Source: Nitrospirota bacterium (lineage in GTDB: Bacteria > Nitrospirota > Nitrospiria > JACQBW01). From it: 39,420 nt of DNA. The translations under genes and the position numbers were made by a program. The DNA is taken from NCBI GenBank assembly GCA_016178585.1, contig JACOTA010000038.1, positions 1 through 39,420 on the forward strand, read 5' to 3'. Shown piece after piece: positions 2,647-39,420 of the stretch (position 1 is its first letter; each line of letters opens with the position of its first letter). Under the pieces are notes generated by a model that was not told where the DNA came from, ran no database searches, and saw only the letters and a program-made list of their open reading frames with translations.

Positions 2647-2783
2647 CCCAAGAACAGAGTTAGAAAGCTGTCATTGCGAACAAAGTGAAGCAATCTCAAG
2701 ACTTTACGATAAGATTGCCACGCACCCTTCGGTGCTCGCAATGACATGATTAATAAGTGGGTGCGAAGTCTATCGCTGGTCTT
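2647..2783 (-). mobile_element. MITE copy 1 (subfamily A), right end clipped
   Basis: From 2650 to 2783 this is, base for base by eye, the reverse complement of 39287-39420. The core contains GTCATTGCGA and TCGCAATGAC in inverted orientation with nested GCAATCT/AGATTGC arms, so it can fold into a long hairpin. The CCC end is present at 2647-2649, but the expected GGG after GGTCTT is missing and no target duplication is evident. The element carries the ATG used by the following ORF. Confidence 0.85.
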
Positions 2784-3648
2784 TGTTATTCTAGCTGGAA
2801 TCTTGTTAGGGCTATTTTCCGCGCTGGCGTGGGGTGCGGGTGATTTTATTGCCAAACGAACCGTAGATAAAATAGGGCCTTATGTCACTCTGTTCTATAT
2901 GTTCCTGGTCGGAACGGTCTTGTTGGGGCTCCTCACCTTTTTCGTTATCGGGACGGCAGGTCCTCTTGACCGATGGATGATCCTCGTTATACTCCTCTCA
3001 TCGATCCTTGGCGTCCTGGGGTATTTTTGCCTTTATTACGGTTTTCAAATCGGCTTTCTCTCTGTCGTTTCCACGATCACGGCAGCCGGAACGATCGTCC
3101 CCGTGGGTCTGTTACTTTTAATTCTCCAGGAGTGGCCCACGCGAATCCAGTTACTCGGAATCGTTCTGATCATTCTGGGGGTGACCCTGGTCTCGTTCAA
3201 GCGCCAGCCGGAAATATCTCCCGCCATTCTAAAAAAGAGACTGGGCGTTATCCCGGCTATTTTTTCTGCTCTCTTCTTTGGATCGTATGTGGTTTTGATT
3301 AAAATTGTCAGCCTTAAGACGGGGCCCATCCTTCCCATTTTCATCGTTCGAGGAATGGGGGTCATTTTAATTGGATTGACTTTAATTTATCGAAAAGAAA
3401 TGACGCCTCCCCCAAAAGCGACATGGAAATATTTGTTGGCTATTGGCGTATTAGATGCCGCGGCATTTTTGGCATTCACCGTTGGAATCACCAGAACCCT
3501 GGTTGCTATTGTAGCGCCTCTCTCCAGCCTTTTTACCCTTGTAACAGTAATCCTTGCCCGGGTGATTTTAAAAGAACAACTCGCCTTTCATCAAAAATGG
3601 GGTTTCTGGATGGTTTTAATTGGAGTGCTGACCCTTTCGTCCCAATAA
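2746..3648 (+). CDS. EamA/DMT-family membrane transporter
   Basis: Up to 300 aa and about ten hydrophobic segments, in two repeats of five as in the drug/metabolite transporter superfamily. SALAWGAGDFIAKR near the N-terminus is typical of the first EamA repeat. Substrate unknown. The start is doubtful. ATG 2746 and the first residues (MINKWVRSLSL) are encoded by the MITE at 2647-2783. TTG 2803 would start the protein at LLGLFSALAWG, closer to what the family shows, but it has only a weak GGA upstream. The MITE may have replaced the native 5' end and supplied the start. It converges with the MCP gene at 3687 with no obvious terminator between. Confidence 0.85.
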   Translation: MINKWVRSLSLVFVILAGILLGLFSALAWGAGDFIAKRTVDKIGPYVTLFYMFLVGTVLLGLLTFFVIGTAGPLDRWMILVILLSSILGVLGYFCLYYGFQIGFLSVVSTITAAGTIVPVGLLLLILQEWPTRIQLLGIVLIILGVTLVSFKRQPEISPAILKKRLGVIPAIFSALFFGSYVVLIKIVSLKTGPILPIFIVRGMGVILIGLTLIYRKEMTPPPKATWKYLLAIGVLDAAAFLAFTVGITRTLVAIVAPLSSLFTLVTVILARVILKEQLAFHQKWGFWMVLIGVLTLSSQ

Positions 3649-7412: not shown

Positions 7413-7462
7413 GCTTAAAACCTTCTTTGCTACTTTACTACGCTTTTTTTTCTGTTAGATTC

Positions 7463-7490
7463 AGGGCAGGCACAGGAGCCTGCCCCTACA
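7463..7490. repeat. REP-like palindrome, half-element
   Basis: GGGCAGGC and GCCTGCCC arms flank an ACAGGA loop, followed by CCTACA. It matches the right half of the larger palindrome at 33719-33773 (one internal base difference visible in the loop). It lies between iscA and hscA, next to a true terminator. Confidence 0.7.
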
Positions 7491-7521
7491 AAAAAAGGGC
7501 GTCACGCAGACGCCCCCTTTT
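7490..7521 (-). terminator. Intrinsic terminator of iscA
   Basis: Read on the minus strand: GGGCGTC, loop TGCGT, GACGCCC (plus-strand arms 7497-7503 and 7509-7515), followed by seven T. A-run and T-run also pair across the base. It lies 17-40 nt past the iscA stop and is the best intrinsic terminator in the window. Confidence 0.85.
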
Positions 7522-7882: not shown

Positions 7883-7960
7883 GCCTGCCCTGGGCAACCA
7901 CGGGGGGTTGCCCCTACAAGAAACATGTCACAATTATTTTCACGTTTGTTTATATTAATT
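7883..7960 (-). repeat. REP-like palindrome in the iscA leader, with conserved flank
   Basis: On the minus strand this reads AATTGTGACATGTTTCT, then TGTAGGGGCAAC, CCCCCGTG, GTTGCCC, AGGGCAGGC. The same order occurs on the plus strand at 33687-33757, including about 30 bp of non-palindromic flank. It forms GGGGCAAC/GTTGCCC hairpins. The element ends 7 bp before the AAGGAG of iscA, so it is part of the transcript leader if the promoter lies upstream. Confidence 0.8.
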
Positions 7961-18523: not shown

Positions 18524-18574
18524 AATCCTTCCTGATAACCGCAGCATAACATTTTTCTAAAGGATAGTATGTTA

Positions 18575-18712
18575 CCCAGGAGAGATAGGATTTGTAACTC
18601 CTTGTTTTGCCTGTCATCGCGAGTATCCGTAGGGTGCGTGGCGATCTCGATTCAAGATAGCGAGATTGCTTCACTTCGCTCGCAATGACAACTTTCTATC
18701 GCTGTTCTAGGG
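18575..18712 (+). mobile_element. MITE copy 2 (subfamily B) with target duplication
   Basis: 138 bp from CCCAGG to CTAGGG, flanked on both sides by TGTTA (18570-18574 and 18713-18717). The right end is CTATCGCTGTTCTAGGG, nearly the family's consensus 17-bp terminal repeat; the left end is diverged. The interior has two GTCAT(T/C)GCGA-type arms. It closely resembles the inner element at 22673-22808. Confidence 0.9.
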
Positions 18713-18751
18713 TGTTACATCCCGTATTCATTAATGTAAATAAAGAAAGAT

Positions 18752-22547: not shown

Positions 22548-22595
22548 TTTAATTCCTCCTGAAATACGCTCTACCTTTATAATCGTAAAATCAAT

Positions 22596-22876
22596 CCCAA
22601 GACCAGCGATAGACTTCGCACCCACTTATTAATCATGTCATTGCGAGCACCGAAGGGTGCGTGGCAATCTTACCCAAGCGATAGGATTTGTAACTCCTTG
22701 TTTTGCCTGTCATCGCGAGCGCCCGCAGGGTGCGTGGCGATCTCGGTTCACGATGGCGAGATTGCTTCGCTTCGCTCGCAATGACAACTTTCTATCGCTG
22801 TTCTTGGGTCTTATCGTAAAGTCTTGAGATTGCTTCACTTTGTTCGCAATGACAGCTTTCTAACTCTGTTCTTGGG
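22596..22876 (+). mobile_element. MITE copy 3, outer element (subfamily A), interrupted
   Basis: An element beginning CCCAAGACCAGCGATAG at 22596 and ending CTGTTCTTGGG at 22876, flanked by the 5-bp duplication TCAAT (22591-22595 and 22877-22881). Its two parts, 22596-22672 and 22809-22876, together equal the intact copy at 39284 apart from the inserted element. It lies between the divergent release-factor-like and yceI genes. Confidence 0.92.
22673..22808 (+). mobile_element. MITE copy 4, inner element (subfamily B) nested in copy 3
   Basis: 136 bp from CCCAAGCGATAG to CTATCGCTGTTCTTGGG, inserted in the outer MITE. The target TCTTA is duplicated at 22668-22672 and 22809-22813. Removing the insert and one TCTTA restores the uninterrupted sequence found at 24439 and 39284. 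The left end lacks the AACAG of the consensus terminal repeat. Confidence 0.92.
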
Positions 22877-22899
22877 TCAATTTGGAAAAAACAGTTTTT

Positions 22900-24353: not shown

Positions 24354-24438
24354 TAAAAATAAAAGACCCCTGCGGTTACTCTGGACGGCTCCTTTATTTG
24401 TATGATACTTCAGAAGTTTTGTCAATCGTTCTCGGGCT

Positions 24439-24578
24439 CCCAAGAACAGCGATAGACTTCGCACCCACTTATTAATCATGTCATTGCGAGCACCGAAGGG
24501 TGCGTGGCAATCTTATCGTAAAATCTTGAGATTGCTTCGCTTCGCTCGCAATGACAACTTTCTATCGCTGTTCTTGGG
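24439..24578 (+). mobile_element. MITE copy 5 (subfamily A), best-preserved
   Basis: 140 bp with perfect 17-bp terminal inverted repeats (CCCAAGAACAGCGATAG at the left, its complement at the right) and a 5-bp duplication GGGCT (24434-24438 and 24579-24583). It encodes no protein of its own. It lies just upstream of the PAS-LuxR gene and behind cfa, so it may carry the regulator's promoter. Confidence 0.95.
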
Positions 24579-24598
24579 GGGCTATTCCTTATACCCCC

Positions 24599-25741: not shown

Positions 25742-25794
25742 AAATATAGCGGTTCCACAAAGTCTAATACAAACGCATTTAGTGCTGTTACGTT

Positions 25795-25868
25795 GTCATT
25801 GCGAACGAAGTGAAGCAATCTCTAATGGTTTCAATAGATTGCTTCGTCGCTCCGCTCCTCGCAATGAC
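25795..25868. repeat. Solo GTCATTGCGA palindrome
   Basis: GTCATTGCGA...GCAATCT and AGATTGC...TCGCAATGAC arms form a 74-bp hairpin. It shares the core of the MITEs but has no CCCAAG/CTTGGG ends, and no target duplication is evident. Either a different REP-type family or a decayed MITE. It lies between cfa and the PLD gene. Confidence 0.7.
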
Positions 25869-25895
25869 ACATTACTTATTACGTCTGCTATAGTA

Positions 25896-33686: not shown

Positions 33687-33773
33687 ATACAAACGTAAAA
33701 AGAATTGTGACATGTTTCTGTAGGGGCAACCCCCCGTGGTTGCCCAGGGCAGGCACAGGGGCCTGCCCCTACA
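33687..33773 (+). repeat. REP-like double palindrome
   Basis: Ends TGTAGGGGCA (33719-33728) and TGCCCCTACA (33764-33773) are inverted repeats. Inside are two hairpins: GGGGCAAC/GTTGCCC and GGGCAGGC/GCCTGCCC. The left 70 bp, including AATTGTGACATGTTTCT, recurs at 7883-7960 and the right half at 7463-7490. Confidence 0.82.
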
Positions 33774-33813
33774 ATTAAAAATTTGAAACTTCTTTCGGAG
33801 GTTTCTTTTTAAA

Positions 33814-34170: not shown

Positions 34171-35317
34171 TTTAATTTCTTTTCTCATTTTCCCTGCATT
34201 CTTTATCGGCGCCATGGCAATGGGCGCGGCAGATATCACGTCAGTCAATGAGGATTCAGCCCCCTCCGGGAAGCCTTTACCTAAAATCAGGCTCTTTCCG
34301 ATTGTAGAAAACCCTCCAAACATCTACGAATGCGGATATCAAGACGGGCCGCCAAATGCCGCAAGGTTTTGCAATCCCACTCATTTAACAACAGACGGGA
34401 AAAACCTCTATGTCGCGGACACCTCAAACCATGTCATCCGGAAAATCGTTCTGTCAACCGGGCGGGTCACTACGCTCGCCGGATACGGAGGGCAATTCGG
34501 CTCAGTCGACGAAACGGGTTCCGGCGCCAGATTCCGGAGCCCACGGGGGATGACTCTCGATAAGAAACGAGACACCCTCTATATAACCGACACGGGAAAT
34601 CACACCATTAGGAAAATTGTCATCTCAAACGCCTCGGTCTCAACGGTCGCCGGAACGTCAGAACGGTTTGGTTCAAACGATGGACCGGGCCTATCAGCCA
34701 GATTTAATGAACCGCAAGGAATTACCGGCGATCCGTCAGGAACCTCTCTTTATATTGCGGACACCTCAAACCATACGATCCGGAAAATTGAAGCGGCAAC
34801 AGGAATGGTTACGACGATCGCGGGTCGTCCGGGCTTTTTGGGATTTGAAGACGGAAAGGGAACGGCCTCCCGCTTTGACCACCCCACAGATATCGCCGTC
34901 GATCCTTCGGGAGCTTATCTTTACGTCGCCGACGCCTCCAACCAGGCTGTCCGAAAAATTGTGATTGCAACGGGCGAAGTGACAACCCTCCTCGGTAAAA
35001 GGGGAGAGAAGCGTGCCGGAGGGAGGTTAGGTATCCCCCACGGAATTACCCTTGATCCCTCAGGCGCCAATATTTATGTTGCTGACACAGCAAACCATTC
35101 TATTCGAAAGATTGATGCCTCCACAGGAGAAACCTCAAACTTTACCGGCACCCCGGGATCACCCCTTTTCGGGTTTCCCCAGGGCATCGTCTTCCCTGAC
35201 GAAGAAAACACCCTCCTCATTTCAGACAAACTCAGTAATTCCATCCAAAAATGGGCCATTGCCACAGGAAAGGTTACCACCCTGGCGGGTCCTCCAGGCT
35301 TTCCAAAAAATAAATAG
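34160..35317 (+). CDS. Secreted NHL-repeat beta-propeller protein
   Basis: 385 aa. The N-terminal 23 residues (MKFSLISFLIFPAFF...) look like a signal peptide. Five or six repeats of about 55 residues follow, each with a PxGITxDPSG(T/A)xLYVADTxNHxIRKI core and a GxVTTLAG end; together they should fold into a six-bladed NHL propeller, a binding surface rather than an enzyme. The start is TTG 34160, overlapping the preceding gene by 11 nt and without a ribosome binding site, so translation is probably coupled. Partner unknown. It could be an extracytoplasmic scaffold. Confidence 0.85.
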   Translation: MKFSLISFLIFPAFFIGAMAMGAADITSVNEDSAPSGKPLPKIRLFPIVENPPNIYECGYQDGPPNAARFCNPTHLTTDGKNLYVADTSNHVIRKIVLSTGRVTTLAGYGGQFGSVDETGSGARFRSPRGMTLDKKRDTLYITDTGNHTIRKIVISNASVSTVAGTSERFGSNDGPGLSARFNEPQGITGDPSGTSLYIADTSNHTIRKIEAATGMVTTIAGRPGFLGFEDGKGTASRFDHPTDIAVDPSGAYLYVADASNQAVRKIVIATGEVTTLLGKRGEKRAGGRLGIPHGITLDPSGANIYVADTANHSIRKIDASTGETSNFTGTPGSPLFGFPQGIVFPDEENTLLISDKLSNSIQKWAIATGKVTTLAGPPGFPKNK

Positions 35318-39261: not shown

Positions 39262-39283
39262 CGAAGTCAAGACCCTATTCCCA

Positions 39284-39420
39284 CCCAAGACCAGCGATAG
39301 ACTTCGCACCCACTTATTAATCATGTCATTGCGAGCACCGAAGGGTGCGTGGCAATCTTATCGTAAAGTCTTGAGATTGCTTCACTTTGTTCGCAATGAC
39401 AGCTTTCTAACTCTGTTCTT
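39284..39420 (+). mobile_element. MITE copy 6 (subfamily A), cut by the window end
   Basis: Begins CCCAAGACCAGCGATAG at 39284 and runs to the window end at CTGTTCTT, so only the final GGG is missing. Its 134 bp from 39287 are the exact reverse complement of 2650-2783 by eye, indicating recent movement. It lies 22 nt past the msrB stop. TCCCA (39279-39283) would be the left target duplication. Confidence 0.9.

Follow-up and report, generated by a model that had tools for sequence, protein, structure and literature searches.

What moves a 140-bp repeat that carries no transposase of its own? The question is raised by a sequence that recurs in the window, by which we mean the whole stretch of 39,420 nucleotides analyzed here, from a Nitrospirota genome. 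In its reference copy, CCCAAGAACAGCGATAG at 24439-24455 faces its exact reverse complement at 24562-24578 (17/17), and the open reading frames of this copy include no transposase frame. The initial annotation of a 140-bp element with perfect 17-bp ends and a GGGCT duplication is borne out (Table 1). Across the whole window, the 17-mer end occurs nine times at up to three mismatches, against 0.06 occurrences expected from shuffles. Sequence comparison leads us to read the repeat, with a probability of about 0.88, as a member of a high-copy MITE family mobilized in trans by IS1380-group transposases.

Copies of the repeat in the window and its genome

The initial annotation also listed copies at 18575, 22596 and 22673 as agreeing in their ends and in the length of their duplications. 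Ends and a 5-bp duplication are indeed common to them; the duplication matches in four of four copies (24439, 18575, 22596 and 22673), each match having a chance probability of ~1/1000. The left repeats of the B-type copies at 18575 and 22673 (136-138 bp), however, are missing 3-4 nt internally, and a single mismatch occurs in the right repeat that ends at 18712. The copies at 22596 and 22673 are both real, with the refinement that the latter sits nested inside the former: the outer A element comprises 22596-22672 and 22814-22876, and the nested insertion carries its own duplication. Two more A copies (2647-2783 and 39284-39420) had been left out of that list.

Table 1. Features of the repeat in the window, and Y1 transposase matches in its genome (G000)
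Feature	Position	Strand	Remarks
Reference A-type MITE, 140 bp, perfect 17-bp terminal inverted repeats	24439..24578	+	identical copy at G000:C18:88550-88689
Left target-site duplication GGGCT	24434..24438	+	from sequence
Right target-site duplication GGGCT	24579..24583	+	from sequence
Inner palindromic core TGTCATTGCGAG...CTCGCAATGACA	24479..24556		common to A and B; elsewhere found without the 17-bp ends
B-type copy, 138 bp	18575..18712	+	TGTTA duplication at 18570-18574 and 18713-18717
A-type copy split by nested B copy	22596..22876	+	TCAAT duplication at 22591-22595 and 22877-22881
B-type copy nested within A copy	22673..22808	+	TCTTA duplication at 22668-22672 and 22809-22813
A-type copy, right end (read on +) 3 nt short, without duplication	2647..2783	-	one of the class ascribed to assembly
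A-type copy ending at contig end	39284..39420	+	flank TCCCA at 39279-39283
Y1 (IS200/RAYT-like) transposase matches	G000:C12:328-651, C13:138-461, C18:56554-56877, C18:43515-43694		the last with core repeats nearby

The A and B types have their ends and right half in common, including the palindromic core GTCATTGCGAG...CTCGCAATGAC, while their left halves are unlike. Three unrelated sequences occur after the terminal 17 bp, which sets the length of the terminal repeat at 17. Nothing in the window matches Rfam, and the predicted fold of the reference copy is an almost complete hairpin (-70 kcal/mol, z -11). At 25794-25869 of the window, the palindromic core (TGTCATTGCGAACGAAG...CTCGCAATGACA) occurs by itself, lacking the 17-bp ends, and it also stands alone in the Nitrospiria genomes G044, G005, G023 and G026, suggesting that the MITE interior is a separate widespread repeat. 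The strong hairpin, the free-standing core and the four Y1_Tnp matches of the own genome are what might be expected of a palindromic repeat of REP/BIME type, which a RAYT (Y1) transposase would move without duplicating the target. REP elements, however, lack 17-bp transposon ends and 5-bp target duplications, both of which are present here, and exact 5-bp duplications are seen in distinguishable copies. Moreover, no Y1 locus lies beside a full element, although one (L295) has core repeats nearby, and we consider this origin highly improbable.

Within its own genome (G000; 2.45 Mb, 82 contigs, class Nitrospiria), 103 matches are found for an A-specific 24-mer and 49 for a B-specific one. The matches listed for the A 24-mer contain no mismatches, which suggests that the A burst is recent. 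The whole element is absent from the 57 relatives searched; the nearest are a B-like copy in the sister genus G001 and, in G019, a copy having the same end with a related interior, matches in the others being to the core only. The terminal repeat pattern gave six matches in viral contigs, approximately the chance level. Short, without a transposase gene, bounded by terminal inverted repeats, flanked by a 5-bp duplication and present in many near-identical copies, the element has the features that define a MITE.

Other repeats were noted alongside. Tandem 171-bp coding repeats with a DTSNHVIRKI-like motif, NHL-type by eye, occupy window positions 34400-35130. A second interspersed repeat (GGGCAGGCACAGGGGCCTGCCCCTACA / TGTAGGGGCAACCCCCCGTGGTTGCCC) has inverted copies at 7462-7496, 7883-7949 and 33689-33779 of the window, and a further dispersed repeat gives the six-frame reading HGIPGTFVNAHPSLKGY in several loci (L106, L111, L147).

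Ends in common with an IS1380-family insertion sequence

The proposal that the element is non-autonomous, with its ends as the key to its partner, proved sound. When 269 genomes of the class were scanned with CCCAAGAACAGAGATAG, the variant CCCTAAAACAGAGATAG appeared repeatedly, in many cases close to contig ends, and beside one such variant in G171 lies a 470-aa frame encoding an IS1380-family transposase (NF033539, NCBIfam transpos_IS1380, E 1.2e-80; PF13701, E 1.8e-31). Full IS elements of 1634-1649 bp were found in G171, G021, G209, G164 and G026. One of their ends reads approximately CCCTAAAACAG[AC]GATAG and the other approximately CCCAAATCCAG[AC]GATAG or CCCAAGAACAGAGATAG, a pattern also written CCC[AT]AA..CAG[AC]GATAG. 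Their flanks carry the duplications TAGAC (G021), GTGGT (G164) and (T)GAGTT (G209), of 5 bp in G021 and G164 and reading as 5-6 bp in G209 and G001; not every IS copy has one (L186, L190), and none surrounds the copies of G171 and G026. The CCCAAGAACAGAGATAG end of the G164 element agrees with the window copy at 16/17 positions; MITE ends of sister genera (17/17) are identical to it, as are variant copies in the own genome. Clear sharing between the window element and the IS is limited to these 17-bp ends, their interiors being unrelated. Ends that match an autonomous IS1380 element, together with a duplication as long as that of the parent IS, characterize an IS1380 MITE, and both are found here. 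In public records, the hosts of the IS are named as Nitrospira and further MAGs of the Nitrospirota; less closely related members come from other phyla.

The suggested check, an IS with the same ends in the same genome, gave a different answer: no IS1380 transposase was detected in the own assembly (96% complete, 82 contigs) by PF13701, single protein or profile. For an IS1380 MITE, an autonomous IS in the same genome is usual but not a requirement. The IS is present in the sister genus G001 (same family), where it is split over two contigs with TCCAAA on both outer flanks, and in G004 a multi-copy IS is kept in the draft solely as ends on contig tips. We infer that the source IS was either lost from the own genome or is missing from its assembly. 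The missing transposase, along with the occurrence of 5-bp duplications in several families, also fits a scheme in which another transposase family of this genome (Tn3-like, IS4/IS5-like or another DDE type) moves the element and its likeness to IS1380 ends is convergent. That scheme appears improbable, as the own genome has no DDE_Tnp_1 member (PF01609, IS4/IS5-type), Tn3-type 38-bp GGGG ends are absent, a 16-17/17 match of MITE to IS ends within one class far exceeds chance, and MITE and IS occur together in the sister genus.

The mover is thus very probably an IS1380 transposase, judging from the ends, length, 5-bp duplications, copy number and nesting of the repeat, and from the match of its ends to an IS1380 subgroup in the same class. 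A DDE transposase of this family, supplied in trans, would recognize the 17-bp ends, excise or copy the 140-bp unit and insert it at a staggered cut, leaving the 5-bp duplication. Against this reading stand the lack of an IS1380 transposase in the own assembly, the limitation of clear sharing to the 17-bp ends, the IS copies without a duplication, and the many A copies without one, which we ascribe to assembly (see below).

Related MITEs were found in other genera. Those of G001 and G210 (163-345 bp) share the ends of the window element and lie between exact 5-bp duplications (TAAGA, TCGAT, TCCCT, TCACG, CTTTC), but have palindromic interiors that differ from its own; a 207-bp MITE in G209 has perfect ends without a duplication. 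The recurrence of these ends indicates that the boundaries are constant across genera. At L219, L221-L224 and L227, MITEs with these IS1380-type ends enclose differing palindromic interiors (GGATTCCCGC...GCGGGAATGAC and CCCTCTCCC...GGGAGAGGG). It looks as though ends of one kind had captured a number of palindromic repeats, each separately.

Copies with one short end

The initial annotation had tied the definition of the element to boundaries that stay the same between copies. These hold exactly in other genera; in the own genome, we analyzed stretches fetched around 98 A copies, and on the face of it the boundaries there do vary. Both flanks are present for 83 copies. Nine of these combine intact ends with an exact duplication, and 13 are intact at both ends but lack it; in ~60, just one of the two ends is 1-6 nt too short, and all but one of these are without a duplication. 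An exact 5-bp duplication is therefore present in 9/22 copies having both ends intact and both flanks present, while a few copies read as having a 6-bp duplication. In another 15 A copies, the contig runs out 135-140 nt into the element.

These short ends are probably a product of a k-mer assembly limit at ~141 bases rather than of variable boundaries. Truncation length correlates with the longest stretch of flank that a copy has in common with another copy at its intact end, opposite the short one (rho 0.37, permutation p 0.003 for identical copies; rho 0.42 for all copies; computed on fetched flanks only), with the caveat that assembler ascertainment could yield a correlation of like sign even if the copies were truly truncated. 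The contig ends roughly obey the same rule, and some pair by matching 5-bp flanks into intact copies: C24/C56 (ATCAA), C26/C74 (TCCCG) and C33/C38 (TGGGA). The last pair includes the window, whose terminal flank TCCCA (39279-39283) matches, as TGGGA, that of the terminal copy of contig C33, so that this contig joins the window end via one intact copy.

Alternatively, the element could be an IS1380-type MITE whose truncated copies are real, produced by a second, imprecise mode of insertion during the recent burst. In a lopsided version, the transposase would join one end, while imprecise end joining at the other would cost the duplication, 1-6 nt of the element and some target DNA. The ~60 of 83 copies with exactly one affected end fit such a mode, as does a disrupted GGDEF gene (L125, G000:C41) which seems to lack ~13 codons on the side of the truncation. 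There is, however, no biological reason for truncation length to follow the flank shared at the opposite end. Truncations of more than 6 nt are very rare. Contig ends break off within the same 135-140 nt of the element and pair into intact copies with exact duplications, and most copies that can be told apart by internal variants are intact, many of them having a duplication. A second insertion mode is thus unlikely, and its lopsided form equally so.

Three other accounts of the short copies were tried and rejected. A loss of constant length at truncated junctions is at odds with the ~13 codons seemingly missing from L125 and the apparent loss of only ~one nucleotide in a second interrupted open reading frame, L131 (G000:C48), whose frames were read by eye. 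Simple mis-joins were assessed by cross-matching the 5-bp flanks of intact ends over all A copies, and the excess was limited to the contig-end pairs. A missing duplication lying further downstream of the truncated end explains just two composite or nested copies (L028 and L030). Separately, an EamA-like transporter frame (window 2746-3648, named by its N-terminal sequence only) begins inside the A copy at 2647-2783 and seems to have lost its own start codon where the copy is truncated.

On the assembly-limit reading, a 140-bp repeat near the k-mer limit yields false one-end truncations and lost duplications in short-read assemblies. Such artefacts are a trap when transposition mechanisms are read from short-read genomes.

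Comparison with known elements

These data assign a parent IS family to an interspersed repeat that is very abundant in one Nitrospiria genome, and provide an end signature for IS1380-type MITEs: CCC[AT]A[AG]AACAG[AC]GATAG with a 5-bp duplication. MITEs with known parents are common; in a limited search of searchable papers, we found no earlier report of one assigned to IS1380. The window element resembles the IS1380 family in its ends, which begin CCC and span ~16-17 bp, in its 5-bp target duplication, and in that its partner IS scores to the NCBIfam transpos_IS1380 profile, but it is 140 bp long and without a transposase. For comparison, the family member IS1247 is 1672 bp long with 16-bp repeats and a 5-bp duplication (PMC3281130).

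Among small non-autonomous elements, MITEPye1 has been ascribed to IS1182 and occurs in 1-3 copies (PMC11578231), the bacterial MITE MITEAba12 (PMC6382973) occurs in 1-22 copies (PMC10969869), and TIMEs derive from Tn3 (PMC4133298). All are short, non-coding elements with inverted repeats, target duplications and hairpin potential that are moved in trans, as proposed here, but they differ from the window element in end sequence and parent IS family. Its ~150 copies also far exceed those of MITEPye1 and MITEAba12. A Tn3-derived TIME was considered and rejected, since it needs 38-bp GGGG-type ends along with a 5-bp duplication, whereas here the 17-bp CCCAAGAACAGCGATAG is followed by sequences that differ between A and B. 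ERIC and REP-BIME repeats are likewise palindromic, mostly intergenic and of high copy number; what sets the window element apart is its defined transposon ends and its 5-bp duplications, both of which agree with a specific IS.
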